The notes beneath the pieces were generated by a model. It was not told the DNA's origin. It searched no databases and saw only the letters and a list, made by a program, of their open reading frames with translations. From NCBI RefSeq assembly GCF_001659605.2, contig NC_035164.2, positions 21,680,500 through 21,744,499 on the forward strand: a DNA stretch of 64,000 nt. The letters are read 5' to 3'. Position 1 is the stretch's first letter. The number at the start of each line of letters is the position of its first letter. Origin of the DNA: Manihot esculenta (lineage: Eukaryota > Streptophyta > Magnoliopsida > Malpighiales > Euphorbiaceae). A program made the translations under genes and the position numbers. Positions 23,467 to 64,000 of the stretch are shown in pieces.

Positions 23467-25539
23467 TGTAATACCCGGCTAGACCCCGGCGTCGGAATTC
23501 CTACTTTCCGGCGAAATCTCCATTAGAATCCAGAATTTAGGGATGTCAGAGCTATCTAAAAGGGTAAAAGAAAGGTTTTCTAACATGTTTTTGCATGATT
23601 TTAGTGTTTTGATGAAGAAAACTTGAAGTTTTGAAAAGAAAAAGAGCAAGGAGGGAAATGTAAGGTTCGGCCGCCGAACCTCACTTTCGGCCGCCGAAGG
23701 TGGCATACTTTCGTTGCCACCGAAGCCCTGTTTTCCCTTGCATCTTCGAGTTTAGACCATCAATCCTCTCGATCTGTAAGAGGTAAGCATGGATAATCAC
23801 CTTTCTTGATGTTTGAAGTATGTTTTGAAGGGTTTTAAGTGAGTTTTGCATGGTTTGCATGGATAGGGTTTATGTTGATCATAAGCCATATGTGTGTATA
23901 TGTGTTGTTTTTGGGGTTTTGAGCTAGTTCTAAGCCCCTATATGCATGAGGAAAGGTATATGCATGTGTTTGAGAGCTTTTTGGTGAGTTGTGCATGTTT
24001 TGGAGAGGTTTTAGAGGCTGGAGACCTAAGGTTGAATCGAGTTCTGCCTTCTGGGAGAACTCAGGTTCGGCCGCCGAAGCAAGGTTCGGCCGCCGAACCC
24101 CTTAAGGAGGGTGTTTTGGCCACCTAAACCCGCCCCCGAAAGTTTGGACTTTCGGCTCTGGAGTGGAGTTTCGACTGCCGAACATGCTGCCGAAGGTTGT
24201 GACTTTCGTCTCTGGAAGGACTTTCGGCTGCCAAACCCTGCCTCCGAAAGTGCCTGACTTTCGGCTCTGGAGGGACCTTCGCCTGCCGAACCTGCCGCTG
24301 AAAGTCCCCTGTCCAGCCTTCCTTTGCTTGTTTTTTCATGCATGTTCGAGATGTTTAAGGGGGTTTTTGGGGGAATGTTTAGAGTTATGATAGAGTATGT
24401 CGGTACCTCATTTGAGTCCACCTGTGTAGGTTCAGACCCGAGGAACCAAGGAGGCCCTCAGTGTTAGCTGGTTCAGAGGTATTCCAGCGTCTACTAGCGG
24501 TGAGTAAAACTGAACTAGGTTCAGACCCGAGAAACTAAGGAGGCCCTCAGTGTTAGCTGGTTCAGAGGTATTCCAGCGTCTACTAGAGGTAAGTAGAACT
24601 GAACTATATTTTAAATTAAATGAAAGGTTTTAGCATGACTCATGCATCATAAATGCCATGGATATATGAGGTTGTATTACATTAGAACTCACGAATATGT
24701 TGCATTGCATTAGATGTTATTGATATGGATGGATATTGGATGATCCTTTAGTCCTTGAGGGAAGTCCAGGGCCCATTATACGTCCTGGCATGATATATGA
24801 GAAAGTCCAGAGGCCCATGCTACGCCCTGGCACCATGTAAGAGAAAGACCAGAGGCCCATTCTATGCCACTGGCATGATGGAACGTCATGTTATGTTATT
24901 GTTATGTTATGAGAAAGACCAGGAGCCCATGTTACGCCCTGGCACTATGGCATGTGTGAGGACTATTGGTGACAAGTTCATCCTTGATATGACTTGTTTG
25001 TGATGTGATGCATATCATGGAGGCATGTTTTATTGATTTTCATAGTGCTCTACTCACTGGGCTCTAGTAGCTCACCCCTCTCCTTAACCCCCAGGTTGCA
25101 GGGCCAGAGATAGCATGTGATAGCTGCAGGAGAAAAGCTTATGTAATAGTGGTAGTGGACATGTATTGTAAATAATGTAATGTATATTGATGATAGATTT
25201 GTGCTTGGCCCTAGACTGGTAGATCCCTTTTGTACATGATATGTATATTATTATATTTGATAATGATATATGTTGAGGACCAAGCTTAATATATGAAATG
25301 ATGACCCATCTAGAGCATTTGATGAGGGCTCTAGTATGGGGTTTAATGTTTACAGAGAAATGTGCATGCTCAGGGTTAAGCTTGGTAGATGTAAAGTTTC
25401 AAATTTTTATGGAAATTGTTGATCATGTAGGGGATTTACCAGGTTTACAGAATGCATAGTAGGCTTGCTACGGGTCCCGGCGGCCTTAAGCCGACCTGGA
25501 TCCTAGCGCCGGTAGCGGTCCGGTTACCGGGTCGTTACA
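23467..25539 (+). mobile_element. Solo LTR of a Tekay-like element (B1)
   Basis: Starts TGTAATACCCGGCTAGAC and ends TTACCGGGTCGTTACA. Flanks ACCTG (23,462-23,466) and ACCTA (25,540-25,544) are a 5-bp duplication with one change. No internal sequence is present, so it arose by recombination between LTRs. It carries palindrome arrays at 23,666-23,698 and 24,066-24,310, an 89-bp tandem duplication at 24,428-24,606, a donor-like GAG|GTAAGC at 23,783, and about four diverged CCAG...CCTGGCA repeats at 24,768-24,950. Confidence 0.9.
24428..24606 (+). repeat. 89-bp tandem duplication inside solo LTR B1
   Basis: Two copies of a unit beginning AGGTTCAGACCCGAG and ending just past AGGTRAGTARAACTGAACT. 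Both duplicate a splice-donor-like site. Other Tekay LTRs in the window have this unit once. Confidence 0.85.
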
Positions 25540-25544
25540 ACCTA

Positions 25545-26179: not shown

Positions 26180-27737
26180 TGATAGAGCATAATTTAGACC
26201 ATATTATCATGATGCTATTGATGTTAATTTATACTTTCTCTGCCTAATTTTGTGATTTTAATCTTATTCTGCAGAAAATGGTGTAAAGAGACAATTTGGT
26301 GAAAATGCCCCTAAAACTGCCTAAAATGAAGCAAAGGAGAGCGAGCATGCCAAGTGCAACTGAAAGGAGCCAAATAAGGAAAGTAATTTGAAATTCAAAT
26401 TTCAAATCCTTAAGAGAATTCAAAATTCAAAATCAAGATTCAGCTCATTAAGGAAAGTGCTAAATAAGGAAAGTGCAGTCAACAGAGCAGTTTGAAATTC
26501 AAGATCTTCAAGAACTCTTTTTCTTATTGAAGAAGCCAAATCTCTAGAAGATGTACATTCAAATTTGAAATTCAAATTCAGCTTGTCAAAGAAGCCAAAG
26601 AAGTCACACATGCTACCTCAAGTCTTGCACATTCAAAATTCAAAATTCAAAATTCAAAAGAGAGGCTCCACCTCATCAATGCAAGATATGGGCGGCATGG
26701 GCAGCACTTGGGCAGCCAAAAATTCAACTTGGGCAGCAAGTAAGGACCTAGGGCAACACTTTCAACTATAAAAAGACACATAAGGAGCCCCCCATGCTTT
26801 TTCTACTCTCCCTTGGATACACATACGGGATTGCAAGTGGCATCATCTCTTCTTCTTCCTTTCTTTATTTTCTTGTTTTGTTTCAGCCATGAGTGGCTGA
26901 AACCTTTTATTCTAGTTGAAGATTAGGTGATACTTTGGTTGTTTTATGGATTGTGAGATCTGAACATAAGTTGTTTATCTTTTGGTTATTCAATATTTGT
27001 GCAATTTCATGCTTGATTCCATTATTGCTTTGTTATTATGATCAATGTGGCCACTTGATTCTTGATTGCAAGGTAATAAATTGGTAGTTTGAATAATTTT
27101 GAGTCCGTAATTGCTTAGATTATTCAAACATAAGAACACTTGGTGTAAAAACTAAGGAAGTTTCATAATCTAGCAATATCACCATGCGTTTGGATAGCTA
27201 GGATTAGATCTCTCTATTTCTTAATGCAATTGATAGTTGTTTTGATGCCTAAGGCCCAAGGACGTTCCTTGGCAACTTGTTGATTAGTGATTAATTAGAG
27301 GATGTTTCCTAATTGGTTTATGATTAAGGAGAGACATGGTAGTGAGAAGCGTCTTCCATCTCCATAACTAATCTATTGAATCTATTAAGGGAAACTAAGT
27401 GTTAATGATCAATCCCAACAACTGAAGTGGATCCAATTCTTCAACTAGATCTTTCTCATTATTGAAATCTCTTTACTTTTATTATTCGCTTTCTTTTATT
27501 GTTTTCAGGTTTAGATCAATTCAATCAATCTCAAAACCCTTTCTTTTTACTTTACTTGCACTTATTTTTATTTTGCTTTCAGTTTCTTTGCTTTCAGTTA
27601 ATTCTCTTGGTCTTGACAAGGAAGATAGGTAATTTTTCAATTCCCTATGGATTCGATCCTTTCACCACTATCTGCAGTAGTAATATTGTTGATAACTGAA
27701 AAGGTTATTTTTGACCGGTTTCGACAACCGCGAGTCA
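26180..27737 (+). mobile_element. Solo LTR of an Athila-like element (D3)
   Basis: TGATAGAGCATAATTTAGAC at the start, CGACAACCGCGAGTCA at the end, with a perfect GGTGT duplication at 26,175-26,179 and 27,738-27,742. It aligns along its length with the 5' LTR of D1, but where D1 has TTCGGC palindromes it has GGGCAGC/GGGCGGC words (26,688-26,738). A TATA box CTATAAAAAG lies at about 26,766-26,775. It is inserted inside gag of element A. Confidence 0.9.
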
Positions 27738-31427: not shown

Positions 31428-32950
31428 TGTAACGACCCAGAAACCGGACCGCTACCGGAGGGTTCAGATCGACTTAAGGTCGCCGGAGCCTATAGCAACC
31501 TACTATACATCCTGTTACACCTGATAAAATCCCATACATGATCACACGATTTAATAAAAATATAAACATTTCATGAACTAAGACTCAACCTGTGCATGTA
31601 TCAAAACTGAAATCATAAAACCCATACTAGAGCCCTCATCAAATGCTCCAGTATGGTCAACATAACATGCCTCAAGCTCAGTTTAAGCATAAACTCATTT
31701 TTAAAACTTTTACATAAGGATAATGAAAACAGGAATTACAAGGACAAATACTAGGGAAAATACTCACCTCTGGCTGACGCTCGCCTAAAACTAAAGCCGT
31801 TATCTCACTACAGTCCTCTACGGTCTTCCAAGTTTGATCCTACACAAGACTCAAATGAGGGACCAAACATAACTTTTACAATAGTCTAAACAACTCCCCA
31901 AGAAACCCCTAAAAACATACCAGAACATACATAAAAATCAAGCAGAAAAAGGCTGGGCAGGGGACTTTCAGCGACAGGTTCGGCGGCCGAAGGTCCCTCA
32001 CAGATTTGAAAGTCAAAACTTTCGGGGGCAGGTTCAGCGGCCTAAACTCTTCACAGATCCGAAAGTCAAAACCTTCGGGGGCAGATTCGACGGCCTAAAG
32101 CCTGTCATAGTTCTGAAAGTTGAAACCTTCGGGGGCAGATTAGGCAGCCAAAAGCTGCCTCCACAAGCAGATTCGGCGGCTGAAATTGGGTTCTCCAGGA
32201 AGGCAGAACCCGATTCTGCCCTAGACATGCAGCCTCCTAAAAGCCTCCAAATACACATGCAAAAGCTCAGAAGTAACAACACACCCTTAACATGCCTAAG
32301 GGATAACCAGATCTAGCCTAAACCTCAACATGCATCATCAACCAAGAGAAAAACGTCCATTATTAACCCTAGGCTGAAACCTATCAACTAAAAGAAAAAC
32401 TAACATGCATGCATCAACAAACCCCCCAAAATACCTATTGGACTTGCTGCAACCTTCAGAAAGTAGAAGAAAGGTGAAAATTCCACTTACCTCTTGAAGA
32501 ACATTAAGGTGGCAATAAGCAAGGGGAGATTTGGAGATGAATAAAAGAGTTTCGAGGGTTCCAAGAGCTAGGATTCTGAAAAACCACTTAATCTTCAAAA
32601 CAACAGCAGAAAAAACATGAAAATTTTGAGGGATTTGAAAAAATTAAGCAAAAATGCCAAAGGTGGTGTATGAACTCACCTCTGCCCGAAAATGGAGAAA
32701 GAAAACTCGTATTTTCGGGCTGATGGCTATTTATAGGTGGCTGAGGGAACCGCATTCGGCGACCGAACTTGAAATACCTCAAAAACTTTTTTCTCTTTGT
32801 TTCTTTTAATAAGATTCTAAAAATTTCAAATTCATTTTATGAAAACCTTATTTTACCCTTCTAAAGATTTCAGCTTCGAGATTCCGGATTCCGATGGAGA
32901 TTCTATCGAAAAGTGGAAATTTCGATACTGGAGTTTAGTCGGATATTACA
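31428..32950 (-). repeat. 3' LTR of element C
   Basis: TGTAACGACCCAGAAACCGG ... GTCGGATATTACA on the + strand. At 1,523 bp it is shorter than the 2.1-2.6 kb LTRs of its relatives. Palindromes are mostly decayed (TTCGGCGGCCGAAGG near 31,979; others mutated), fitting an old insertion. The TTCAAGAG|GTAAG site is kept on the - strand near 32,490. Confidence 0.82.
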
Positions 32951-33225: not shown

Positions 33226-35693
33226 TGTAACGACCCAGAATTCCGGACCGCTACCGGCGCTAGGATCCAGATCGGCATAAGGCCGCCGGGACCCGTAGCA
33301 AGCCTACTATGCATCCTGTACAGCTGGTATAATCCCATACATGATCAAACATATCCATAAAACATTTAAAACTTTATCTTTTCCCAACTTGACCTGTGTA
33401 TGCACTATGACTGAACTCATAGAACCCCTAGGGTCAGCATACCCTATGTCAAACTCGGTCCAACACATATATCGACATGAAATAAAACTCATGTATAAAG
33501 GGATTAACCAACTCGGGCCAAGCACAATACTATAACTCTGAACATATAACATAATATCATATTACAACATAACTCGTTTACATCCTTACATAACTTTACA
33601 TTACATCATGTCCACTACTATTCTATTACATAAACATGACCATGGACGTAACCTGCTGATCTCCTGACTATCTCTGACCCTGCAAACCTGGGGTTAGGGG
33701 AGAGGGGTGAGCTAAAAAGCCCAGTGAGCAGAAACCATAAAAGAAAACAGTTCATTTTAACATATGCTATCATGGAATGCGTCACATCACAAATATATCA
33801 CCTCAAGGATGAATCTGTCACCAATAGCCCTCTACATATCAATCTCGTACCACAACAAGTCAACAATGCTTTATGCCAGGGGCAATACGGCCACGCCTGG
33901 ACTTCACATACTTTATGCCAGGGGCGATACGGCCACACCTGGACTTCTCATACTATATGCCAGGGGCGATACGGCCACGCCTGGGCTTCTCATCTCATAT
34001 CATATCATACATGCCATATCATATCAATTCATATCATGTCATAACATACTGAGGGCTAGAGGATCATCCAGTATCCATCCACATCATCATCATCGTATTA
34101 TGCAATGCATCATATTCGTGAATTCTAATGCAAACAACCTATTGCATAACATGGTATTCATGATGCATGAACATGCTGAAAACATTTGATTTAAAACATA
34201 AGGGTTAGTTCCACTCACCTCTGGCTAGCTCTGGACTAACTCTGAAGCAGCTAACACTGCTAAACACCTCGGTTCCTCGGGTCCGATCCTACACAGGTGG
34301 ACTCCAGTGAGGTGCCAAACATACTCTAAACAACTCATAAACAACTACCCAAAAACCCCCTAAAGCATCACTTAAACATGCATAGAAAACACTCATGAAA
34401 CGGCTGGACAGGGCACTTTCGGCGGCACTTTCGGCGGCCGAAGGTCCCTTCCAGAGACGAAAGTCAGGCAGGTTCGGCGGCACCTTCGGCGGCCGAACTC
34501 TCTCTCCAGAGACGAAAGTCAGGCACTTTCGGCAGCCGAACATTACCTTCGGCGGCCGAAAGTCTGCTTTCAAGCCAAAACTCAACTTTCGGGGGCAAGG
34601 TTAGGCGGCCAATCCATGCGTCCTCTGGCAGGTTCGGCGGCCGAAACCACCTTCGGCGGCCGAACCTGAGTTCATCCAGAACTCAGCCTTTGTGCATTTC
34701 AAGCCTCCCAAACCTTCCATACACCCCAAAACAAGCACCCAACTTCTCAAACACATGCATACATCCTTAACCATGCACAAGGGAGCTCAAACAAGCTTAA
34801 ACTCCCAAAAACAACATCTAAAGCATACATAGATAGTTTATGACCCACATAGGCCAAAACCATCAAAACAAACCAAACCTCACATACTCTCTCCCAATCA
34901 TGCATACTCTCTCCCATATGCTCAAGGGGCTTGAAACTAACTTAAACCCCAACACAAACATCACAAGAACATACATTGGGCATAAAACCCACATAAACCC
35001 TAACATGCATATCTACCCATACTCAACCATCAAAACCTCTTAAAACTCACTTAAAACTTCATGAAACGTAAAAGAAAGCATAGATCCACACTTACCTCTT
35101 GAAGATCGAGGGTTTGTGCGAGCTCTAACTTGGAGATGGGAGGAAACTACTCCTTGGGTCTCCAAGCTTCCAAAACTTTGATCTAAGCTTGAAAACTCTT
35201 CAAAAGAACCATGGAACTCATAAAAATATGAAGGAGATGAAGAGAAAACATGAAAATGACCAAAGGAGGACATGAACACACTTGAGCTCGAGAATGGGGA
35301 GAAATCTCGCCCATTTTCGGTCTGAGGGGCTTTTATAGGTGGCCAGCCAAACCTCCTTCGGCGGCCTAACATGCAAGCAAAACACCCCCATGTTCGGCGG
35401 CCGAACCTGGTTTGTTCAAACAAGGCTTTCAGAGGCCAAAAGCGCTCCCAAAACCAACTCATGTTCGGCGGCCGAACTTCACTTTCGGCGGCCGAACCTG
35501 GCAAAACCTCCTTGATCTTTTCTTTTCCAAAACTCAAATCTTTTTCATTTAAAACTATGAAATCAGTAAAAATCATTTTAGAAATCACATTTTACCCCTC
35601 TAGAAGACTCTGGCATCATCAAAATTCCATATTCCAACGGAGATTCCGCCGGAAGGTAGGGATTCCGATGCCGGGATCTAGCCGGGTATTACA
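33226..35693 (-). repeat. 3' LTR of element E
   Basis: TGTAACGACCCAGAATTCCG ... CTAGCCGGGTATTACA. It contains three 42-bp units (33,872-33,997; core GCCAGGGGC...GCCTGG), a palindrome array (34,417-34,665) with a 12-bp duplication CACTTTCGGCGG not in the 5' LTR, and single palindromes at 35,393, 35,464 and 35,484. Confidence 0.92.
33872..33997. repeat. 42-bp tandem repeat (x3) in the 3' LTR of E
   Basis: Units start at TATGCCAGGGG (33,872, 33,914, 33,956). CCAGG and CCTGG in each unit can pair as a hairpin. The 5' LTR has the same three units near 40,470-40,595. Confidence 0.9.
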
Positions 35694-37998
35694 TTCTTCC
35701 CCCCTTTAAGAACATTCGTCCTCGAATGTTCAAACAAACAAACAGGCAACTCAAAGCATAGCATCAAACATACATTAACAAGCAAGCAAAACCTAAAAAC
35801 CTCTCTCCTAAAAGAGAGACACGGTCATTGCTAGAGTATAAACTCTCGGTCTCCCTGGTGCACTTTTCATCTTAAGGTGATTCTAAGGGGCTTTCACCAT
35901 CGGGATTTCCTTGTTTCCACACTTTCTGACTTGTGTGTCTGTGGTCCGTACTAGCTGCTCAACATAGGTGAGATCCTCTACGGTCTCCACCTCTGGTTCC
36001 TTTAAGAACCTCACTCGGATCCGACACGAACTCATATACCGTGGAAACATGGAAAAACGAATGGATCTCTTCCATAGAAGTGGGTAAATCTAACTCGTAG
36101 GATACATTCCCAAATCCCTTGCAGGATTTCAAAGAGTCCAATGTATCTGAGAGCTAATTTACCTTTCTGCCCATAACGAATCACCCTCTCTTTTGGAGAC
36201 ACCTTCAGCAAACCTCGACTTCCTCGAGAACCTAAACACGCTTCTGCCGCGCACTCTGACAAAACTCTTCTTCTCTTCTGAAACTTTACATGCCTCTTGC
36301 GGACGACTTCATACTCTCCTGCTGACTCACAGCAGTTCTGATTCTTCTCATCTTCTGACTATGCAGCTCTTACTCCTTTTATCTGCCTCTGATTCTCCTC
36401 TCTTGACTCAAGATGTATTGCAAACTCTTTCGATCTGTAAGGATCTGTCCTCATACCTTATACAGGTACTGTCTCCACATCTTGAGTGCAAAGATTACCA
36501 TTGCCATCTCTAGATCATGTGTAGGATGATTCAACTCATGCTTCTTCAGCTACCTAGAAGCATAAGCAATCATCCTATCACTGGCGGACAGAGCCACCAC
36601 TGGTGCTGACATCAACATTTCCTTTGGCTTTTCAAAGCCCTTATCACTCTGAGTAGACCACACACCCTCTAGTTCTTCTTGATCCATCTGGCCATAGGAG
36701 CGGCAACTCTAGAGAAGTTCTAGATGAACCTCCATTAGGTAACCTGCCCAACCCAAAAAGCTCTTGATCTTAGTCATTACCATGGGCCTGGGCTGGTCGA
36801 CTACAACTTCAACTTTCTCAGGTCTACTTCACTTTTCTTTTCTCCGACACACATGACCCAAGAAGGATATGCTCCTCGACCAGAACTCACATTGGAAAAC
36901 TAGGCATCCAAGCCATGTTCTCTCAGGATTTGCAATCCTGATTTCAGATGATGGGCATACTCTTCTGCATTTCTGGAACTCACCGAGGTACCGTCAATGA
37001 AGACAATAACGGAGTGATCCAGAAACTGACTAAAACTCTACTTATGAGGTCCATGAATGATGTAGGGGCGTTCATTAACCCGAACGACATTCCTAGGAAC
37101 TCATAGTGCCCATATCTGGTTGTAAACACTGCTCTCTGTACATCTTCTTCCTTGATCTTAACTGATGGTACCTGGACTTCAGATCTATCTTGGAAAGGCA
37201 ACCAGCTCCTGCTAGCTGATTTCAACTAGATCGTCGATCCACGGTAACAACTACCTGATCTGGGTAGTGACTTTGTTCAACGACTAGTAGTCGACACAAA
37301 GTCCTAGGGATCCATCCTTCATCCTCATAACAACACTGGAACACCCCAAGGTGAAGTGCTCAGTCAGATGGGAACCCTTAACTACCAACTCTTACAACTG
37401 ATCCTTATAACTCCTTTAACTCTGTTGATACCATCCTGTGGGGAGGGATAGAGGTTGGTCCAATTCCATGCATTACTTCTATTTTAAACTCTATCTCCCT
37501 GACAGGTGATAGTCCTGGGAACTCGTCTGGGGAAACATCTAAACTCTCTAACAACGGGCACTGAGGCGGGCTCCCTGACCTGACTGCTATACTCTCTCTG
37601 AAGAGCTAGAACCCCTGACAACTTTTCCTGAACAACCTACGAGCCTATAGGGTTGATACTGAACCTCTAGGTATCCCTATTCTGTCCCCTCTAAGGACTA
37701 CCTCTGATCCATCCTGACCTCTGAACCTGACTACCTTGTCTCTGCAGACTAGGTAGTACCACTAGTAGAAGAACCAATCCAACCCTAGAATGACGTCAAA
37801 CAGTCAAATCTAGAACCGCTAGGTCAGCTGGAAGGCATCTACTCACAACACATACTCTGACTATACCGGCAGACTGACTCTGCCACAGATGGATCACACT
37901 TGGGTGCACTGACCCCAAGGGGATACTCTAACCCATAAGCTATCAACCCAACCTCACAAGGGCTCATAAGCAAACAAAGAAAAGAGAAACATCAGGGT
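35694..37998 (-). pseudogene. Degenerate pol region of element E
   Basis: Begins at the right with protease-like debris (37,700-37,990) and keeps an RT piece at 37,225-36,980 (TTRYGHYEFLGMSFGLMNAP, the strand before the catalytic aspartates). RNase H-like words follow near 36,400-36,560, then an integrase C-terminal echo at about 36,262-35,959 (KLALRYIGLFEIL, SYELDLP, FFHVSTVYEFVSDPSEVL). A 9-bp-arm perfect hairpin (35,710-35,731) and a polypurine tract (complement of TTCTTCCCCCCTTTAAG) abut the LTR. At 2.3 kb it has lost roughly half of a normal pol and is full of stops and frameshifts. Confidence 0.7.
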
Positions 37999-39820: not shown

Positions 39821-39823
39821 TTC

Positions 39824-47685: not shown

Positions 47686-47688
47686 AAG

Positions 47689-48914: not shown

Positions 48915-48916
48915 GA

Positions 48917-53055: not shown

Positions 53056-54723
53056 TGACAATGCAATTGTCGAAGCTGGTAAAAAATAACCTTCTTGGTT
53101 ATCTATAATTTACAACTGCAGATAGTGGTGAAGGATCGAATCCACAGAGAATTGATTACCTATTTATTTTTCTTAATCAAGACCAAGAGAACTAATTGAA
53201 AACACAATTGAAAGCAAGTAATTGAAAGCTGAATGAAAGTAAAGTGCAATAAAAGTAAAAAGGGGGGTTTTGAGATTGAATTGTCTAACAACTATTGAAA
53301 GCAATTTAAACAGCAAGTAATCAAAATAAAAGAGTAAATCAATATGAGAAAATTCTAGTTGAAGATATGGATCCACTTTGGTTGTTTGGGGTTGATCATT
53401 GAAACTTAGGTTATCTTGATTGATTCAATAGATTAGTTATGGGGGTGGAAAACGCTTCTCACTACCATGTCTCTCCTTATGATTAAATCAATTAGGGAAC
53501 GTCCTCTAATCAATTACTAATTAACAAATTGCCAAGGAACGTCCTTGGGCCTTAGGCATCAAAACAATTGTCAATTGCATAAAGAATGAGAGAGATCTAA
53601 CCCTAGCTACTCAAACGCATGAGATGTTGCTAGATCATGCAATTCCCTAGTTTTTACACCAAGTGTTCTTAGGTCAGAATATTTCCAGCAATTACGGACT
53701 AACAAATATCCTAACCAACAATCAATTAACTTTGCAATCAAGAATCAAGTGGCCAATTTGATCAAAACAACAAAGCAATCTTAGAATTAAGCACAATTGC
53801 ATGAATATTGAATAAACCAAAATCAAACACTTTATGTTCAGATCTCACAACCTTTTAAACAACCTTAGTTTCAACCAAACTTCAACTAGAATAAGGGTTT
53901 CAGCCACTCATGGCTGAACCAAAACAGAAAATAAAAGAAAAGAAAGCAAAGAGATGAAGAACTAAGGGAAAGAACCCTTGGAGAAGCCTTGCCAATTCCT
54001 TGGAGGAGAGGTGTATGAAATCTGCCTCTTCATGTCTTTTTGAGGCCTTTAAATAGATGTTGAGAGGCTGCCTAGGGTTTCTTGGGTGTCCATGCATTTT
54101 TGTAGAGATTGCCCAAAGTGCCCTTGAGTCTTCTATGTGTATGTGTGGAGTTGCAAGCCCTTTTTGGTCTTTTGATTGATGCCCAAGTGTGTTCAAGAAG
54201 CCTTCTTCACATTATTCATGCACTAAAGAGGAAGGTGGAGCCTTGATTTGAATTTTGAATGTGCATGACACTAAGTGGGAAACATGTGATCTTCAAGATT
54301 TGGCTTCTTGAATAAGGAGGAGATTGTTCGGGGGCACTTTCGGCCGCCTAAGATGAGTTTCGGAGGCTGGACTTTCGGCTCTGGACGCAAGGTTCGGCGG
54401 CCAAAGGTGCCGCCGAAGGTGGGTGACTTTCGCCTCTGGACTGAACTTTCGGCTTCCGAAAGTGCTTCCGAAAGTGGGTGACTTTCGGCTTCCGAAAGTG
54501 CTTCCGAAGGTGCTTCCGAAGGTGGTTGAGTTTCGGCTTCCGAAAGTGCTTCCGAAGGTGGTTGAGTTTTTGGCACTTTTTGGCATTTTTAAGAGCATTT
54601 TCTCCAAATTGTTCCTTTACACCTAATATCTGTAAAACATGATTAAAACCACAAAATTAGGTAGAATAGGTGCAAATAAACATCAATAAGATCATGATAA
54701 TATGGACTAAATATGCTCTATCA
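53056..54723 (-). mobile_element. Solo LTR of an Athila-like element (D2)
   Basis: TGACAATGCAATTGTCGAAG ... AAATATGCTCTATCA with a perfect GCTCT duplication (53,051-53,055 and 54,724-54,728). It aligns with the D1 LTR in reverse orientation. The GC-rich array (54,323-54,570) here uses mainly the variant TTCGGCTTCCGAA and CTTCCGAAAGTG units. Inserted in the protease of element C. Confidence 0.9.
54323..54570 (-). repeat. Palindrome cassette, TTCGGCTTCCGAA variant, in solo LTR D2
   Basis: Units such as GACTTTCGGCTTCCGAAAGT and GCTTCCGAAGGTGGTTGAGT repeat about every 20-50 bases with little divergence. Same position in the Athila LTR as the D1 cassette but a different palindrome centre (CTT instead of CGG or CCG). 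Confidence 0.8.
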
Positions 54724-55080: not shown

Positions 55081-57356
55081 TGTAATACCCGGCTAGACTC
55101 CGGTATCGGGATTCCTACCGTCCGGTGGAATCTCGGATGTCGAAAACCTCTAGAAGGGTAAAAACATGTTTTTATAAAATGTTTTCATGTATCTTAAGGT
55201 TTTAAATAAGAAAGAAAAGGAGTTTTGAATGAAAAAGTCCATGGAGGCATTTCCAGGTTCGGCCGCCGAATGTGGGATAGTTTGGGGGGGCACGTTAGGC
55301 TTCCCAATGTGGCTCATGTTCAGCCGTCGAACTTGCATGAGTTTTGGAATCACTTTCGGCTTCCGAAGGTGGCCTGGCTAGCCACCTATAAAAGGCCCCA
55401 TGGTCGAAAACGGGCGAGCTTTTTCCCCTATTTTCGGCCAACGGTGAGTCCATGCTCTACCATGGTTGGTTTTGATGATTTTCCTCAAATCTTTCAAGTT
55501 TTAACGAGTTCTAACTTGGTTTTTGAGGATTTGTGAGCTAAGATCAAGTTTTGGAGCTTGGAGACTCAAGGAGCTAGATCTCTCCCATCTCCAAGTTAGG
55601 ATCATTTCTCCTCTAGATCTTCAAGAGGTAAGCTTCGATCCTACCATTCTTGAATGTTTTAAACAAGTTTTGAAGGGTTTTTGGGATAGAAATGCATGTT
55701 TAAGTTAGTTGAATGTTGTTAGGGTTAATGTTGAGTTTTTGAGTAATGTATGATGTTTGAGTTGCTTTATGTGTTTGTGTTGGGGTTTAGGATAGTTTGG
55801 GACCCCTAAATGCTTATTTTCTTGTGTATGCATGTTGTAGAATAGCTAAATGCATGTTGGATGGTTTGGGAGGCAAATGTGCATTGTGGAGGCTGAGTTC
55901 TCCCCTTTGGAAGAACTCAGGTTCGGCAGCCGAAGGGACTTTTGGCCGTCGAACCTGCCTGTGGAGGCAAGCCTTTGGCTGTCGAACCCTGCCCCCAAAA
56001 GTGGACTTTCAGCTCTGGAAGGGAGTTTCGGCCGCCGAAGGTGCCGCCGAACATGCATGAGTTTCGTCTCTGGAAGGGACTTTCGGCTGCCGAAGGTGCC
56101 GCTGAAAGTGGCTGAGTTTCGGCTCTAGAGGGATTTTCGGCCGCCGAACCTGCCGCCGAAAGTGCCCTGTTCAGCCTTCCTTTGCATGATTTCAGTGATT
56201 TTTTTAAGGTATTTTAGGGGGTTTTTAGGGAGTATTTTAGAGTCATGTTCATGTATGTTTGGTCCCTCATTTGAGTCCACCTGTGTAGGTTCGGACCCGA
56301 GGAACCGAGGACCCCAGCAGTGAGATAGCTGCTTCAGTGTCTTGTCAGAGCTAGCCTGAGGTGAGTAGAATGACTCTTTATGTTTCAAAGTAAATAATGA
56401 AAGTTTTAGCATGATTCACGCATCATGAATGCCATGAGATATATTAGGGTACTTGCATTAGAATTCACGAATATGTTGCATTGCATATTATGTTGTTGAT
56501 GTGGATGAATGTTGGATGATCCTTTAGCCCACACTATGATATGATATGATATGAGATAGTGATGATACGGTATGAAAGACCAGTGAGGCCCATTCTACGC
56601 CCCTGGCACTATGTAAGAGAAAGACCAATGAGGCCCATTCTACGCCCCTGGCATATTGAAATATTATGTTATGTTAATGTAAGAGAAAGACCAGTGAGGC
56701 CCATTCTACGCCCCTGGCACTATTGGAATGTGTAGTGGGCTATCGGTGACAAGTTTATCCTTGATGTGATTTGTCTGTGATGTGATGCATTCCATGTTAG
56801 CATATGTTTTAAATGTTTTTATTATTCTGCTCACTGGGCTCTAGTAGCTCACCCCATTCCCTTAATCCCCCAAGTTACAGGTACGGGATAGAATCAGGAG
56901 GTCAGCAAGAATAAGAAGTCATGCTTTATGTAATAGCTAGATGTGGACATGAAAATGATGTTATGTAAAGCATAGTACAGTAATGTAATGTAATGATGTT
57001 TAATGAGGTTTAGAGTTGTGCTTGACCCTAGTATGTTGGTTAATCCCTTTGTACATGATCTATAAAATGTTTTATCAATGTTTATGTAAACCAGACTTTA
57101 TGTATGATATGTTACCCCATTGAAGCTTTTGTTGAGGGCTCCAGTGTGGGGTTTGATGTTTATGGTTATGAGTTGTGCATTCACAAGTTAAGCTTGGTGA
57201 ATGAAAGGGAAAGTTCAAAATTTTTATGTTTATATTTGATCATGTATGGGATTTAACAGGTATACAGGATGTATGTTAGGCTTGCTACGGGTCCCGGCGG
57301 CCTTAAGCCGATCTGGATCCTAGCGCCGGTAGCGGTCCGGTTTTCGGGTCGTTACA
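55081..57356 (+). mobile_element. Solo LTR of a Tekay-like element (B5)
   Basis: TGTAATACCCGGCTAGACTC ... TTTTCGGGTCGTTACA with a perfect GACAA duplication (55,076-55,080 and 57,357-57,361). TATA CTATAAAAGG at about 55,385; donor-like AAGAG|GTAAGC at 55,628. Palindrome cluster 55,920-56,165. Three repeats of GAAAGACCARTGAGGCCCAT lie between 56,575 and 56,720. Confidence 0.92.
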
Positions 57357-57473: not shown

Positions 57474-58184
57474 TGTAATACCAGGCTAGACTCCGGCATC
57501 GGAATTCCTACCGTCCGGCGGAATCTCGAATGTCGGAACTCTCTAGAAGGGTAAGAATATGTTTTTCTAAAATGTTTTTACATGTTTTCAAGGTTTTAAG
57601 TATGAAAGAAATTGAGTTTTGAAAGAAAAACACCATGGAGGAAAATCCAGGTTCGGCCGCCGAACCTCATGTTCGGCCGCCGAACTTGGTGGAGTTTTGG
57701 AGTCACCTTTGGCTTCCGAAGGTGGCCTGGCCAGCCACCTATAAGAAGCTCCATGTCCGAAAATGGGCGAGTTTTCTCCTCCATTTTCGGGCAAAGGTGA
57801 ATTCATGCCTTTCCATGGTTGGTTTTGAGGTTTTCCTTTAATCCTTTCAAGTTTTTAACAAGTTTTATCTTGGTTTTGAAGATTTTAAGTTCAAAATCGA
57901 AGTTGAAAAGCTTGGAGACCCCAGAGCTCAAATCCTCTCAATCTCCAAGTTTGGGTCACGCCTTCTCTCGATCTTCAAGAGGTAAGCGTCGATCCTCATC
58001 ATCTTTGATGTTTTAAACAAGTTTTATGAAGGTTTATGGGGTAGAAATGCATGTTTAAGCTAGTTGTAAAAAATGTTAGGGTTTATGTAGATTTGAGGAT
58101 AAATGTATGTAATGTGATGTTATGTTGTTGTTTGTTGGGGTTTAGGCTAGTTTTATGCCCCTATATGCTTGAGAATGAGTTTAT
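57474..58184 (+). mobile_element. Tekay-like LTR (B6), left part
   Basis: TGTAATACCAGGCTAGACTC onward, following CTCTT. It matches the first ~700 bp of B5, including two palindromes (57,652 and 57,669), a TATA-like CTATAAGAAG and the AAGAG|GTAAGC site at 57,982. It is cut by D1 at 58,185; the remainder should appear right of the window. Confidence 0.85.
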
Positions 58185-59969
58185 TGATAGAGCATATTTT
58201 AGCCCATATTTTCATGATCTTATTGATGTTTATTTGCACCTATTCTACCTAATTTTGTGGTTTTAATCATGTTTTGCAAATATTAGGTGTGAAGAAACAA
58301 TTTGAAGAAAATGCTCTTAAAAATGCCAAAAGAAGCCAAAACTAGAGAAGCAACCTTCGGAGGCAACTTTCGGAAGCCAAAAATCAGTCACCTTCAGCGG
58401 CAACCTTCGGCGGCCGAAAGAGGACTCCAGAGACGAAAGTCGACCACCTTCGGCGGCACCTTCGGCCGCCGAACCTTGTGTCCAGAGCCGAAAGTCCAGC
58501 CTCCGAAACTCACTTTAGGCAGCCGAAAATGCACTCCAATGTGTTCCTTATTCAAGAAGCCATATCCCAAGTTGCCATATTTGAGGAGCCAAACAAGGAA
58601 AGTATTTTGAGATCCAAATCTTCGAGATTCAGATTCAAATATTGAATTTCAAGATCAAGCTTATTAAGGAAGCCAAATCCAAAGATCACATGTTTCCCAC
58701 TTCGTATCATGCACATTCAAAATTCAAAAGGAGGCTCCACCTTCCTCATTAGTGCATGGGAAATCTCTTAGACTTAATGTACAGCATCTTGAGGATCTTG
58801 GACAGCTATGAAAAGACCAAAGTGCCCCCACTTGCCTTCTATCACATGTGACTCGTTTTTGCCTTCACTCATGCACAAATAAGGCACATGCAACACCAAG
58901 GACACTTTGGACAGCCTCTAAAAGTCTCCTGGACTTCCATGAAACCCTAGGCAGCCTCTGAAGACATATTTAAAGGCTTCAAGAAGACAAGAAGACAGAG
59001 ATTTTGGATCCACCTCTTCTCCAAAGTTCGGCAAGGCCTCTCCAAGGCTCCCTCTCCACCTTAGTTCTTCTTCTTCTTTCTTCTTTTCTTTTATTTTCTA
59101 TTTGGTTCAGCCATGAGTGGCTGAAAACCTCTTTCTAGTTGAAGTTTGGTTGAAACTAAGGTTGTTTAAAGGGTTGTGAGATCTGAACAGAAACTATTGT
59201 CTTTGATTTTATTCAATATTCATGCAATTGTGCTTTGATTCCAAGATTGCTTTGTTGTTTTGATCAAATTGGCCACTTGATTCTTGATTGCAAAGTTAAT
59301 TGATTATTGGATTAGGATATTTGTTAGTCCGTAATTGCTGGAAATATTCTGTCCATAGAACACTTGGTGTAAAAATCCAAGGAATTGCATGATCTATCAA
59401 CATCTCATGCGTTTGAGTAGCTAGGGTTTGGATCTTTCTTGATCTTCATGCAATTGGCAATTGTTTTGATGCCTATGGCCCAAGGACGTTCCTTGGTAAT
59501 TTGTTGATTAGTAATTGATTACAGGACGTTCCCTAATCAGTTTGTTCTTAAGGAAAGACATGGTGGTGAGAAGCATCTTCCACCCCCATAACCAACCTAT
59601 TGAATCAATTAAGATAACCATGTTTCAATGATCAACCCAAACAACCAAAGTGGATCCATATCTTCAACTAGACTTTTCTCATATTGATTTCTTGTTTTAT
59701 TTTAATTACTTGTTGTTTTAATTGCTTTCAATAGTTGTTAGACAAATCAATCTCAAAACCCCCCCTTTTTACTTTCCTTGCACTTGTTTCTATTTCTCTT
59801 TGATTACTTGCTTTCACTTGTACTTTCAATTAGTTCTATTGGTCTTGATTGAGATAAATAAATAGGTAATCAATTCTCTGTGGATACAATCCTTCACCAC
59901 TATCTGCAGTTGTAAATTGTAGGTAACCAAGAAGGTTATTTTTGACCGACTTCGACAACCGCTCCTGTA
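58185..59969 (+). repeat. 5' LTR of element D1
   Basis: TGATAGAGCATATTTTAGCC ... CGACAACCGCTCCTGTA. The 3' end reads TA where relatives end CA. The array at 58,355-58,535 contains CTTCGGCGGCCGAAAG, CCAGAGACGAAAGTC and CTTCGGCCGCCGAACC. TATA-like TATTTAAAG at about 58,968. Shares TGGTTCAGCCATGAGTGGCT with the other Athila-like LTRs. Confidence 0.88.
58355..58535 (+). repeat. GC-rich palindrome cassette in the D1 LTR
   Basis: Alternating TTCGG...CCGAA palindromes and CCAGAGMCGAAAGTC words, a layout also found in Tekay LTRs (34,417-34,600; 24,130-24,310; 56,030-56,165). Relative to LTR transcription it is inverted compared with Tekay. Absent from the homologous D3 LTR. Confidence 0.8.
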
Positions 59970-59975
59970 AAAAAT

Positions 59976-59993
59976 TGGCGCCGTTGCCGGGGA
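59976..59993 (+). other. Primer-binding site of D1 (tRNA-Asp)
   Basis: TGGCGCCGTTGCCGGGGA, an 18-base perfect complement of the 3' end of plant tRNA-Asp(GTC) with its CCA, six bases after the LTR. Confidence 0.93.
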
Positions 59994-60020
59994 GTTGATA
60001 TCACTTGTTTATTTTCTTTC

Positions 60021-62426
60021 ATGACCAGATCTAAACGCAGGAACACACTACCCTTTGATCCAGAAATTGAACGCACTCTCAGAAGACTTGGAAAGCAAGC
60101 TGTAAAGCAATCTGCCCAACATTCGGTCGCCGAACCCAACCCATCTTCGGCCGCCGAAAGTTCTTCACTCCAGCAACCGAATTCTGCACCAATGGCAGAA
60201 CTTCAAGCACCAGTTGCTGCCCATGATGGACATGCTGTCCAAGGCCAAATGGTTCAAGAAAATCCAGCAATTAGGTCCCAAGAACAAAGAGAAAGGACCA
60301 TGGGAGAATTGGCAACTCCTGTAGGTGATTATGCCCCACTTTGCATCACCTACCCACCTCTGACAGTTCCCTTTGAACTGAAGACAGGTTTGATAAACAT
60401 TCTCCCTAAGTTTAGAGGTAGAGAAAATGAAAATCCACACAAGCACTTAAAAGCATTCAATATAATCTGTTCATCTATGAAACCTCAAGGTATCTCTGAA
60501 GACCAAATTAAGTTGAGAGCCTTCCCCTTTTCATTGGATGACTTTGCTAAAGATTGGTTATTTTACTTGCCACCTGGATCTATTACTTCTTGGGATGATA
60601 TGGTCAGAACCTTTTTGAACAAATACTTCCCAACTCATAAATCAATTGGCATAATAAGAGAAATTACAAGCATAAAGCAAAAACCATCTGAGGACCTATA
60701 TGATTATTGGGAAAGGTTTGAAAGACTTTGCACAGAATGCCCTCAACATGACATGTCAGACAAGGCCCTTATACAATTCTTCTATGGAGGATTATCTCCC
60801 TCAGAGAGAAAATTCATTTATGTAACCTGTGGAGGCTCCATTGAAGACAAAACACCTAGACAAATGAGAGAATTAATCTCCACTCTTGCAGCCTCATCTA
60901 AGCAATATGGAGAAGAGAGGCAACTACAAAGGGCCAATGAGGTAAATTTTCCTACTATGTCTGAACTAACATCTGTTATAAAAAATGCTGTGGTGGATGT
61001 GGTACAACAGATTCAAGCACCCCAGCCACCTAGGCCATGTGGGATTTGTTTATGTGTGGGACACCCAACTGATCAATGTCCCACACTCCAAGAAGACCAT
61101 CATCAAGCCAACGCTATTGGGAGGTACAACAACCAGCCTAGATATGATCCATACTCCAACACCTATAATCCAGTTTGGAGAGACCATCCCAATTTTAGCT
61201 ATGGAAAGGGCAACACTGATCAGAATCACCAAGGTTACCAAAGAAGCCAAGTCCAACCAGCACCTCCAATGGACAATAACACTATGAATGAGGTAGTGAA
61301 GACCTTGCAAATGATACAACAACAGATGGGACAAATGGCCACCTCCATAAACAGATTAGAAGCTCAAGGAAAGTTGCCATCCCAGACTGAGGCAAATCCC
61401 AAACAAAATGTAAGTGTCATTACTTTGAGAAGTGGGAAAGAGTTTCAAGATGCAAGATTTGAGGAGGAAAAGCAAGTTGAACCAAAGCATGCATCATCTG
61501 AGACACCCTCTGCACAACATCCAAGGCAATCTGAAGCCTCTTCATCGCATTCTGCACCACCTCCTGCGCAAAGAGCTGACCCGAAGGTAAGTTTTCACAT
61601 CCCACCTCCTTTTCCAAAAAGATTTGAAAGAACTCAAAAAGAAAAAGAAGAAAAGGAGATCCTTGAGACCTTCAGAAAAGTGGAGATCAACATACCACTG
61701 CTAGATGCTGTCAAGCAGATTCCAAGGTACGCAAAATTTCTGAAAGAGTTGTGCACCAACAGAAGAAAGCTAGCTGAAAGAGAGAAAGTAAGTGTAGGTG
61801 AGGTAGTTACTGCTGTTATTAAAAGAGAACTCCCTACTAAGTGCAAGGACAAAGGTATGTTTGCTATCTCTTGCAAAATTAGGAATGTTGGTATCAAGAA
61901 AGCCATGTGTGATCTTGGTGCATCTATCAATGTCATGCCTCTCTCCATCTATAAATCTCTCAATGCATGTGCACTAAAAGAAACAAGAGTTGTGATACAA
62001 TTGGCTGATAGATCTGTGGTATACCCCATAGGTGTTCTAGAAGATGTGTTAGTCCAAGTAGATGAACTTGTCTTTCCTGTTGATTTTTATGTGATTGATA
62101 CTAAGGAAAATAGTTGCAATACTAATTCTGACATTCTTCTTGGACGTCCCTTCTTGAGTACTGCTAGAACTAAAATTGATGTGCATGATGGTACTCTTAC
62201 CATGGAGTTTGAAGGGGAAGTAATCAAGTACAATGTTTATGATGCTATGAAATACCCACATGACATGACCCCTGTTTATGGTCTTGATATTATTGACTGT
62301 TTGAGCCAAGATGTGTTTAATGAGAATCAAGATTGTGTTTTAAATGATGATCTTTGCAGGATTGAAAGCCAGAAACTGAAAGAAACCATCTGCAGCATTC
62401 AACAGATTGAGGTTGCGCAGACATAA
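60021..62426 (+). CDS. Gag-protease polyprotein of D1
   Basis: An 801-residue frame starting MTRSKRRNTLPFDPEIERTL. Residues about 30-60 include SVAEPNPSSAAESSSL, encoded by the TTCGGC palindromes. The gag core is at about 110-260 (FPFSLDDFAKDWLFYLPPGS, YWERFERLCTECPQHDMSDK). A CX2CX4HX4C zinc knuckle, CGICLCVGHPTDQC, lies at about 340-353. The gag-protease junction LRSGKEF is at about 473, a PPPFPKRF motif near 530, and the retropepsin begins near 610: CDLGASINVMPLSIY (Asp about 631), ILLGRPFLSTA (about 705). It stops TAA at 62,424. Gag packages genomic RNA; the protease would cleave the polyprotein. The start is the first ATG, 28 bases after the primer site. It appears intact. Confidence 0.9.
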   Translation: MTRSKRRNTLPFDPEIERTLRRLGKQAVKQSAQHSVAEPNPSSAAESSSLQQPNSAPMAELQAPVAAHDGHAVQGQMVQENPAIRSQEQRERTMGELATPVGDYAPLCITYPPLTVPFELKTGLINILPKFRGRENENPHKHLKAFNIICSSMKPQGISEDQIKLRAFPFSLDDFAKDWLFYLPPGSITSWDDMVRTFLNKYFPTHKSIGIIREITSIKQKPSEDLYDYWERFERLCTECPQHDMSDKALIQFFYGGLSPSERKFIYVTCGGSIEDKTPRQMRELISTLAASSKQYGEERQLQRANEVNFPTMSELTSVIKNAVVDVVQQIQAPQPPRPCGICLCVGHPTDQCPTLQEDHHQANAIGRYNNQPRYDPYSNTYNPVWRDHPNFSYGKGNTDQNHQGYQRSQVQPAPPMDNNTMNEVVKTLQMIQQQMGQMATSINRLEAQGKLPSQTEANPKQNVSVITLRSGKEFQDARFEEEKQVEPKHASSETPSAQHPRQSEASSSHSAPPPAQRADPKVSFHIPPPFPKRFERTQKEKEEKEILETFRKVEINIPLLDAVKQIPRYAKFLKELCTNRRKLAEREKVSVGEVVTAVIKRELPTKCKDKGMFAISCKIRNVGIKKAMCDLGASINVMPLSIYKSLNACALKETRVVIQLADRSVVYPIGVLEDVLVQVDELVFPVDFYVIDTKENSCNTNSDILLGRPFLSTARTKIDVHDGTLTMEFEGEVIKYNVYDAMKYPHDMTPVYGLDIIDCLSQDVFNENQDCVLNDDLCRIESQKLKETICSIQQIEVAQT

Positions 62427-64000
62427 GACATTCAGCCGCTGAACATAGACACCTTTCAGCCGCTGAACCCTACTGATCTTCGGAATCCGAATCCTGTTGC
62501 ACCGCTCCCGAAAGTCACTGCGCAAAAGGAAGACGAACTTCGGCCGCCAAACACCTTTCGGCCGCCGAACTTGACTGACCTGCGGAAGCCGAATCCATCG
62601 CCACAACTTACTCCGCATACCACGAATCTTCAGCCGCCGAACCCAGAATCTTTTCGGCTGCCGAATCTCTCACAGCAACCTCCATCACAAGCAAGCTCCT
62701 CTGAAACTCCTCTGCAACAACCTTCTGATCTGAAGCCTCTCCCAGATCATCTGAAATACATGTACTTGGGAGCCAATAAGACACTTCCGGTCATAGTTTC
62801 CAATGAATTGAACCAACATGAAGAAGCAAGCCTCTTAAAGGTACTACAGAAACACAAGGGAGCCATAGGATGGACCATTGATGACATAAAAGGTATCTCT
62901 CCTTCCACATGCATGCATAGAATTCACATGGAGGATGAATGCAAACCTGTCAGAGATGCTCAAAGGAGATTGAATCCACCCATGATGGAAGTGGTAAAGA
63001 AAGAAATAGTCAAACTCCTTAATGCAGGAATCATCTACCCAATCTCTAATAGCAAATGGGTGAGCCCTGTACATGTAGTTCCAAAGAAAACTGGAATTAC
63101 CATTGTTCCAAATGCTAAAGGGAAACTTGTACCCACTAGAGTTCAAAATGGATGGAGGGTATGCATGGACTATAGGAAGCTCAATGCTGCGACGAGAAAG
63201 GATCACTTCCCACTTCCTTTCATTGATCATATGCTAGAAAGGCTTGCAGGTAAAACTTACTATTGTTGTCTTGATGGATATTCAGGTTTCTACCAGATTC
63301 CAGTTGCTCCAGAAGATCAAGAGAAGACTACCTTCACTTGCCCTTTTGGCACTTTCGCCTTTAGGAGAATGCCATTTGGACTATGCAATGCACCTGCCAC
63401 TTTTCAGCGATGCATGATGAGCATATTTTCTGACTATGTGGGTAAGACAATTGAGGTATTTATGGATGACTTCACAGTTCATGGAAACTCTTTTGATGAA
63501 TGCCTTTCCAAATTAGAAAAGATCTTACAAAGATGCATTGAGACTAACCTTGTGCTTAATTATGAAAAATGTCATTTTATGGTTAATCAAGGTATGGTCT
63601 TAGGTCATGTTGTTTCAGCCAAGGGCATTGAAGTGGACAAAGCTAAGGTGGATACCATCAAAAATCTGCCCTACCCCACAAATGTTAGAGACATACGCTC
63701 ATTCCTTGGCCATGCAGGATTCTATAGAAGATTCATCAAAGACTTCTCAAAAATTACTTTGCCATTATGCAGATTGCTCCAACAAGATGTAACATTTGAT
63801 TTTGATGCAGATTGCAAAAAGGCATTTAATTTGATTAAAGAATTGCTTGTGACTGCCCCAATTATTCAAGGACCTGACTGGAACTTGCCATTTGAAATCA
63901 TGTGTGATGCAAGCAATTATGCAGTAGGAGCAGTCTTGGGGCAACGTGTGGAAAACTCACCCCATGTCATTCACTATGCCTCTCGCACACTTGATGCTGC
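62427..64000 (+). CDS. Pol of D1: linker, reverse transcriptase, start of RNase H (partial)
   Basis: The gag-protease frame simply continues after the TAA and is open to the window edge; the first ATG is at 62,760. The linker (62,427-62,720) is Pro/Asn-rich (LRPPNTFRPPNLTDLRKPNP), again encoded by the palindromic motif. RT follows: HKGAIGWTIDDIKGISPSTC, VHVVPKKTG, GWRVCMDYRKLNAATRKDHF, RMPFGLCNAPATFQRCM, catalytic EVFMDDFTVHGNSF (about 63,450), LGHVVSAKGIEVDKAKV, SFLGHAGFYRRFIKDFSK. RNase H begins near 63,890 (FEIMCDASNYAVGAVLGQR, Asp present). RT copies element RNA into DNA. With no frameshift, expression would need readthrough of the single stop, or the stop is a recent mutation. Confidence 0.88.
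62438..62665 (+). repeat. Palindrome-derived coding array in the D1 protease-RT linker
   Basis: Repeated CTTCGG...CCGAA words (CTTTCGGCCGCCGAAC at 62,558; decayed CAGCCGCTGAAC and CTTCGGAATCCGAAT) give tandem RPPN, QPPN and RLPN tetrapeptides. Same motif as in the element's LTR and gag. Confidence 0.75.

Follow-up and report, generated by a model that had tools for sequence, protein, structure and literature searches.

A Dyad-Symmetric Module Common to Tekay-Type and Athila-Type Retrotransposons of Cassava and Its Possible Recognition by a Shared Factor

Introduction

In the U3 regions of the retrotransposons Tnt1 and Tto1, short repeated enhancer boxes stand upstream of the TATA box, as do arrays in the cassava elements considered here; to our knowledge those boxes belong to one family each and are not common to Ty3/gypsy lineages. 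The GCC box of ERF factors has the core GCCGCC. Swapping of long terminal repeats (LTRs) between retrotransposon families moves non-coding LTR parts, as has happened in cassava. In the accessible portions of the relevant papers, the VANC target arrays of Arabidopsis VANDALs consist of a short motif in tandem array that expands and contracts, is enriched in one group of transposable elements but seldom found elsewhere, and occupies several places per element, all of which is also seen in cassava (PMC5735166, PMC10398659). The heat-responsive elements of COPIA LTRs (ONSEN, COPIA37, TERESTRA, and ROMANIAT5) are likewise described, in the part of the source available, as transcription-factor sites in the LTRs of several families, those of ONSEN having grown by duplication (PMC5059998). 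Here we describe a repeated DNA module in a stretch of 64,000 nucleotides of the cassava (Manihot esculenta) genome (contig NC_035164.2, positions 21,680,500 to 21,744,499; hereafter the window). The repeating unit of the module has dyad symmetry and spans about 19 bp, A-N2-TTCGG-N3-CCGAA-N2-T, with a firm core and with an outer A and T that are frequent. It is carried by two retrotransposon lineages, Tekay-type and Athila-type, in opposite orientations within their LTRs, and in the Athila-type also within coding sequence.

The Repeated Site in the Window and the Genome

The window holds 47 exact copies of TTCGGC(C/G)GCCGAA, the first starting at 23666 and the last at 62557-62569, with none 5' of 23666, and 37 further copies with one or two mismatches. 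An earlier note on this DNA had counted about 40-50 exact palindromes by eye plus many near copies; the count holds, and the end point it gave, 62665, is that of the last near-copy (62653-62665). Its companion words ACTTTCGGCTCTGGA and CCAGAGACGAAAGTC occur exactly four and six times, respectively, on both strands together. In 100 dinucleotide shuffles of the window no exact palindrome arose, and the whole cassava genome (640 Mb) contains 273,055 of these exact 13-bp palindromes against 1 in a letters-reversed control. The more general form TTCGG-N3-CCGAA occurs at 379,349 sites genome-wide (203 in the reversed control), and the version with a 2-bp spacer at 769 (183 in the control).

Finer properties were read from the window together with 25 loci of 10 kb each (250 kb in all; 20 chosen round positions and 5 random draws). 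The spacer between the TTCGG and CCGAA arms is 3 bp in 209 of 210 cases, spacers of 0-2 and 4-12 bp contributing one in all. The centre triplet, read on either strand, is CCG in 148, CAG in 32, CCC in 15, and another in 14; in 20 Athila LTR pieces AAG is the commonest centre (33 of 47 sites). Counted over distinct 29-mers, with sites within 8 bp of a piece end excluded, A occupies position -3 in 64/69 sites of Tekay array 1, 66/88 of Tekay array 2, 27/30 of the Athila LTR, 13/13 of gag, and 14/28 of the linker between protease and reverse transcriptase (RT), and A at -3 is accompanied by T at +3 in 62/69, 51/88, 22/30, and 10/13 of the first four. Half-sites outside full dyads have A at -3 in 261 of 447 cases.

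The lineage of each site in the 25 loci was assigned from flanks within 300 bp, with the sites masked in the library. All 101 exact palindromes fell to the two lineages: 89 to Tekay-type sequence (83 LTR and 6 labelled internal, the best flank of these six being internal sequence) and 12 to Athila-type sequence (7 LTR, 5 internal). The 148 sites of the N3 form were divided as 134 beside Tekay-type sequence, 13 beside Athila-type, and 1 elsewhere (L033:5306), the surroundings of which we take to be a dynamin-like exon. Sequence no farther than 300 bp from such flanks makes up only 36.8% of the 250 kb, which means that the assignment is not made by default. When assignment was unmasked, in the first 20 loci, one of 73 palindromes (L013:3185) lay in window sequence outside the labelled intervals. 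There were no palindromes in loci with an RVT_3 gypsy element (L012), a copia and another gypsy element (L017), or gypsy pieces (L029). In the 25 loci, 147 of 148 sites are thus beside Tekay- or Athila-type sequence, and a free or mobile minisatellite, one of the earlier suggestions, was rejected on these counts. Viral contigs gave no match to a tandem pair of the motif, and Rfam gave none at its gathering threshold for window positions 23000-64000. No description of the module was recognized in titles and abstract openings drawn from a literature mostly without subscription papers, and neither 13-mer was found in the text of the papers in that literature.

The Two Lineages and Their Arrays

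Two elements, E and F, are complete insertions; their LTRs measure about 2.5 kb, and target duplications of 5 bp were read from the flanks. The primer site TGGTATCAGAGC follows the 5' LTR of F and was also found, in reverse, at the internal border of an E LTR; this site (TGGTATCAGAGC/TGGTATCAGAGCC) presumably pairs with the initiator methionine tRNA (tRNA-iMet). Between E and F, Tekay-type internal sequence has coding matches to RT_RNaseH and SH3_Tf2-1, and a relative at locus L011 has RVT_1, SH3_Tf2-1, and rve (below cut-off); no chromodomain matched in the Tekay-type frames scanned. From primer site and domains we file E, F, and their kin as Tekay/Del-type chromoviruses. After LTR D2, by comparison, TGGCGCCGTTGCCGGGGA is read, and this primer site (TGGCGCCGTTGCCGGGGA/TGGCGCCGTTGCCGGGGAG) is one that we take to pair with tRNA-Asp. 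The gag-protease frame that follows matches PF03732, with Asp_protease_2 below the cut-off; it has 1,040 homologous proteins, the named ones among the best 120 of the 1,040 come from plants, and the closest are Manihot esculenta entries. On this primer site and frame we file D1 and D2 as Athila-type.

Tekay-type LTRs are characterized by two arrays. Array 1 holds 0-7 exact palindromes per LTR in 17 LTRs found by their flanks, and its last near-copy starts 31-32 bp before the TATA box in 12 of 15 LTRs and 67 bp before it in 3 of 15 (hand-read), the TATA box being missing from the piece in the other 2 of 17. In LTRs F1, E2, and B5, array 2 comes some 510-930 bp after the TATA box and is therefore probably transcribed. 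Other tandem repeats are present in Tekay-type LTRs, namely a 42-bp unit in the LTRs of E (33869-33993 and 40467-40591) and an 89-bp unit in B1 (24427-24606).

In the Athila-type LTRs the arrays sit upstream of TATTTAAA, a TATA-like box. The D1 array has five near-copies (at most 2 mismatches) and no exact site, and the D2 array has two exact sites. Among 20 Athila LTR pieces (taken from 41 matches), 19 have sites or near-copies and 9 have exact palindromes, the sole piece without sites (L053) abutting a neighbouring LTR and being uninformative; 19 Athila LTRs that are 95-98% identical to D1 keep sites or near-copies. The window also has three older Athila LTRs; the two ends of each match D1/D2, and no near-palindrome was found in them. 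For one of these, old1b, the blastn comparison with D2 omits D2 198-399, and a global alignment puts unrelated AT-rich letters opposite that interval, so it is not a clean empty site.

A Cassette Shared in Inverted Orientation

When the arrays are masked, D1 and D2 share with F1, E2, and B5 a single 27-bp match (E=0.77). Without masking, positions 234-356 of D1 and 1044-922 of B5 form an inverted alignment of 123 bp at 81% (E=1.6e-27). The D1/D2 cassette scores 154-168 against array 2 of B5 when inverted, compared with a shuffled maximum of 43; with the 13-mers masked the same comparison still gives 52-54 inverted versus 22-25 direct. Inverted exceeds direct in 17 of 18 comparisons (nine Tekay arrays by two Athila arrays), and CCAGAG-type words run in one direction in three Tekay reference LTRs and in the opposite direction in the two Athila LTRs. 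TCCAGAG words in the Athila orientation occur in 18 of the 20 Athila LTR pieces and the reverse word in 0 of 20; a later Athila piece (L055) has one such word in each direction. On these alignments the common module is at least two 55-bp units, beyond a mere 13-mer.

Several of the earlier statements are borne out by these comparisons: that the lineages have different primer sites (TGGTATCAGAGCC after F, TGGCGCCGTTGCCGGGGAG after D2), that LTR similarity is wanting outside the arrays (for D1 and D2 against F1, E2, and B5), and that the whole cassette is shared. The placing of the arrays in LTRs stands for E, F, and related Tekay-type pieces and for both Athila-type LTRs (in D1 as near-copies only), but not for 60122-60158 and 62431-62665, which are Athila internal sequence. 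What the alignments add is that the Athila cassette is inverted relative to that of Tekay. Because the module is common to two LTR families that are otherwise dissimilar, chance and whole-LTR descent can be set aside. The module was exchanged between the lineages, probably as DNA, to judge from its orientation: the inverted state in Athila is more easily explained by copying at the DNA level and speaks against simple template switching from one sense RNA to another. The direction of transfer, Tekay to Athila or the reverse, is a more conjectural part of this reading.

Sites within Athila Coding Sequence

A further addition here is that the Athila-type element also carries the motif in coding sequence and, as translated, in two codon phases: SAAE in gag and RPPN in the linker. 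In 22 coding pieces (2 from the window and 20 fetched, array-plus and array-minus alike), RPPN is spelled CGGCCGCCGAAC in 32 of 34 cases and CGGCCGCCAAAC in 2, and SAAE is spelled TCGGCCGCCGAA in all 13, although arithmetic allows 192 synonymous spellings of each. The use of two codon phases in coding DNA argues that the nucleic acid and not the protein is selected. Linker sites are spaced by multiples of three (24, 84, 18, 72, and 24). Among close cassava relatives, P0001, P0002, and P0003 are without the gag stretch, and P0001 and P0004 are without the linker repeats. Some linker sites have altered yet symmetric arms (for example TTCAGCCGCTGAA, TTCGGAATCCGAA, and TTCGGTGACCGAA), and all four symmetric double changes seen are in Athila internal sequence (window 62431, 62455, and 62479; L028:2180).

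LTR array and gag sites agree in all 14 Athila copies read, pieces for which were taken from 6 of 40 gag matches and 10 of 55 P0003 matches. Both are present in nine (the window element, C18:20667354, C5:10459278, C16:10598090, C17:34877427, C5:20543685, C11:6808579, C9:4919748, and C14:16097485) and both absent in five (C1:17899418, C12:19920855, C9:295939, C7:14673582, and the P0003 element C12:19572864, whose gag was scored from its protein). Linker sites are present in 7 of 7 both-present copies in which the linker was read and absent in 2 of 2 both-absent copies likewise read there. The first pieces of C12:19920855, C9:295939, and C7:14673582 covered only about 210-240 bp of the LTR and missed most of the array region; in the stretch that follows, these three and C1:17899418 have no site or near-copy, and these stretches match none of D1, D2, and old1b at E 0.001. 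Three more P0003-type LTRs, scored for the LTR only, have no sites. Locus L028 has gag and linker sites, and its rearranged LTR left it out of the joint count. In the first four array-minus copies (pieces L058-L065, L067, L068, and L090-L093) the gag body is 95-96% identical to the window copy, and their LTR 5' ends are 70-76% like D1/D2, a mismatch that likely reflects recombination between Athila subfamilies.

Conservation and Decay

In the 17 Tekay-type LTRs, which were picked by flanks and not by arrays, and with columns referenced to F, the majority base among non-gap rows reaches 98.6% in palindromes as compared with 80.0% in array spacers, 84.5% in the 5' flank, and 75.1% in the 3' flank. 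CG columns show a 98.4% majority inside palindromes and 82.5% outside. Between the paired LTRs of E and of F, which were identical when inserted, 11 of 286 near-palindrome positions differ versus 108 of 4,700 outside; sites therefore decay no slower after insertion, and low mutation is not the reason for their conservation. Decay after insertion combined with constancy across subfamilies is what selection on replicating copies would do, and selection would on this ground be the cause of the conservation. Tandem duplication and homogenization may contribute to the constancy of the sites.

A Proposed Mechanism and Its Alternatives

On balance it is probable, as we infer from sequence patterns, that a single dimeric factor, used by both lineages, binds the dyad and promotes transcription or protects from silencing. 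In our reading a dimer would contact about 19 bp, the outer positions less tightly. One DNA-binding factor, host-encoded or element-supplied, would bind the dyad, and the binding would aid transcription of the element or its escape from silencing. In Tekay-type elements there are two clusters per LTR, array 1 just 5' of the TATA box and array 2 in the predicted transcribed part. Athila-type elements would have gained a piece of Tekay-type array 2, inverted, upstream of a TATA-like box, or the transfer would have run the other way; the Athila copies with an LTR array carry further sites in gag and in the protease-RT linker. Of the roles suggested in the earlier note, an exchanged regulatory module fits best, given array 1 just 5' of TATA and the Athila array 5' of its TATA-like box; a packaging module is possible, but site flanks do not covary as in a hairpin, and the inversion in Athila speaks against template switching between sense RNAs.

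A number of observations weigh against recognition by a dimeric factor, or at least against parts of the case for it. The outer A/T pair is weak in the linker, where both bases are present in only 4 of 28 sites, and one of the 18 cassette comparisons (D1 against array 1 of E) favours the direct over the inverted orientation, 94 to 87. Compensatory change is unsupported, the four symmetric double changes comparing with 4.1 expected. Read in the element sense, 112 of 113 Tekay sites and all 9 Athila internal sites have C at the centre, a bias that duplication explains but that a strand-specific RNA role fits too. With gaps counted, the conservation figures fall to 80.7% for palindromes, 53.6% for spacers, 76.9% for the 5' flank, and 73.7% for the 3' flank, because the number of sites varies (palindrome occupancy 0.82). 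Copies within an array cannot be treated as independent, and identical sites will spread by tandem duplication alone. Similarly, simple linkage within one lineage may account for the joint presence in Athila; since the elements are related by descent, the 14 agreements do not amount to 14 independent events. Finally, the sites fold more stably than shuffles (z -2.3 to -5.5), which is discounted since any palindrome array would fold better than shuffles.

Among the alternatives, a neutral minisatellite, that is, a functionless tandem repeat expanded by slippage and moved once between families by recombination, is unlikely. The varying number of exact sites in Tekay array 1, the 20-bp repeat of E with its 4.8 identical copies, and the decay of sites after insertion are all as it would predict. 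It accounts poorly for conservation across subfamilies that exceeds the flanks, for coding sites in two codon phases with nearly one synonymous spelling, for the lack of any free array outside both lineages in 250 kb, and for the recurrence of one site amid dissimilar surroundings in five settings (the two Tekay arrays, the Athila LTR, gag, and the linker).

An RNA module, in which each site would form a short hairpin (a 5-8 bp stem and a 3-nt loop) in genomic RNA for dimerization, packaging, or translation control, also seems an unlikely explanation. Array 2 and the gag and linker sites do lie in predicted sense RNA, and the fold stability and the C centre in sense already mentioned are in its favour. 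Set against these, positions -1/+1 and -2/+2 pair no more than in shuffles (z -1.4 and -1.6) and do not covary as stem extensions would, while -3/+3 are mostly A and T; the spacer is rigidly 3, where hairpins would tolerate 4-6; array 1 is upstream of TATA; and the Athila LTR cassette is inverted, its exact sites having a mixed centre (3 C and 3 G).

It is improbable that the site is instead a host silencing or recombination signal of no aid to the element. Palindromic, CpG-rich arrays could attract methylation, and tandem repeats can, according to the accessible part of one source, be targets of RNA-directed DNA methylation (PMC10398659); elements would, however, be expected to lose such sites, and the 19 Athila LTRs that are 95-98% identical to D1 keep sites or near-copies. 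LTR elements are described, in a source available in part, as weakly preferring palindromes as insertion sites (PMC6911290). Homology of the two LTR families along their whole length, with the arrays merely inherited, is scarcely credible, for although both are Ty3/gypsy LTRs with arrays near the 5' end, the array-masked comparison of five LTRs contradicts whole-LTR common descent, the cassette is inverted, and related Athila LTRs are without sites.

Recognition of the dyad by a dimeric factor has a fuller and more tentative form, which we hold to be possible at somewhat less than even chances: two unrelated lineages would converge on one dimeric factor through the same dyad, acquired from Tekay-type LTRs or in the reverse direction, after which Athila would have written copies into coding DNA in two phases. 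If so, promoter, gag, and pol linker would all display the site; which families amplify would depend on the factor, perhaps through an anti-silencing platform; and the genome, with some 380,000 sites, would act as a very large sink for the factor. The acquisition of control modules by retrotransposons, and the common use of a host factor by unrelated families, are seldom open to direct test. They are testable here, given a site known at base level, strict spacing, about 380,000 copies, site-free relatives as natural controls, and two coding phases.

Feature Coordinates and Other Features of the Window

Table 1. Elements, arrays, and coding sites in the window (positions are those of the 64,000-nucleotide stretch)
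Feature	Position	Strand	Remarks
Arrays, Tekay-type LTR B1	23666..24290	+	
old1b, older Athila-type LTR	26180..27731	+	matches D1/D2 either side of array; no near-copy of site
Array, Tekay-type LTR piece C	31979..32184	-	
Element E, Tekay/Del-type chromovirus	33226..42369	-	LTRs ~33226-35693 and ~39824-42369; target duplication TAGGA
Array 2, E LTR 33226-35693	34430..34664	-	
Array 1, E LTR 33226-35693	35357..35496	-	
Array 2, E LTR 39824-42369	41026..41260	-	
Array 1, E LTR 39824-42369	41953..42172	-	contains 20-bp repeat, 4.8 copies, 100%
Element F, Tekay/Del-type chromovirus	45105..52648	+	LTRs ~45105-47685 and ~50100-52648; target duplication GAAGC; primer site TGGTATCAGAGCC
Array 1, F 5' LTR	45302..45462	+	upstream of TATA box; final near-copy begins 32 bp before TATA
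Array 2, F 5' LTR	46210..46424	+	palindromes and CTTTCGGCTCTGGA-type words; downstream of TATA box
Array 1, F 3' LTR	50296..50456	+	
Array 2, F 3' LTR	51152..51386	+	
D1, solo Athila-type LTR	53056..54723	-	nested in Tekay internal sequence; target duplication GCTCT
D1 array	54339..54544	-	cassette inverted relative to Tekay; upstream of TATTTAAA at LTR position 669
Arrays 1 and 2, Tekay-type LTR B5	55258..56148	+	array 2 is top-scoring partner of Athila array among nine arrays compared
Array 1, Tekay-type LTR piece B6	57652..57684	+	
D2, 5' LTR of Athila-type element	58185..59973	+	followed by TGGCGCCGTTGCCGGGGAG
D2 array	58406..58527	+	inverted cassette; upstream of TATTTAAA at LTR position 783
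Athila gag-protease open frame	59976..62426	+	PF03732; runs to in-frame stop
Two gag N-terminal coding sites	60122..60158	+	read as SVAE and SAAE
Six sites and near-copies, protease-RT linker	62431..62665	+	RPPN-type peptides; just 3' of this copy's stop

Elsewhere in the window, a 560-aa open frame (3425-5107, minus strand) has the domain of the Fantastic Four (FAF) meristem regulators (E=6.5e-18), the only host-gene domain among ten window frames scanned. Positions 14001-17000 are very AT-rich (GC 15.0%, 13.5%, and 9.0% in successive kilobases), with many short tandem repeats.

Comparison with Known Systems

The GCC box invites comparison since the commonest cassava centre yields GCCGCC within the site. 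It is the TTCGG/CCGAA arms, however, that stay fixed, and the centre triplet varies (AAG prevailing in the Athila LTR), so the site lacks the constant GCCGCC core of an ERF site. LTR swapping differs in that here the array alone moved, inverted, between lineages with different primer sites. The heat-responsive elements of COPIA LTRs are, in the part of the source available, mostly species-specific and often non-homologous (PMC5059998), while in cassava more than 100 bp are homologous between lineages, and inverted. VANDALs, as far as the accessible portions of the papers describe them, are DNA transposons that encode their own binding protein, and their motifs are mainly non-coding and differ between families (PMC5735166, PMC10398659). 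The cassava motif is instead common to two LTR-retrotransposon lineages, is a rigid dyad, and also occurs in coding sequence, the Athila gag and linker sites being coding and the Tekay sites seen being non-coding. It does resemble VANC targets in being dense and restricted to its elements, as both the locus sample (147 of 148 sites) and the genome-wide excess over the control (379,349 versus 203) indicate. By analogy, then, VANC target arrays appear to be the closest working model for the cassava module, and the heat-responsive elements of COPIA LTRs the closest regulatory one.

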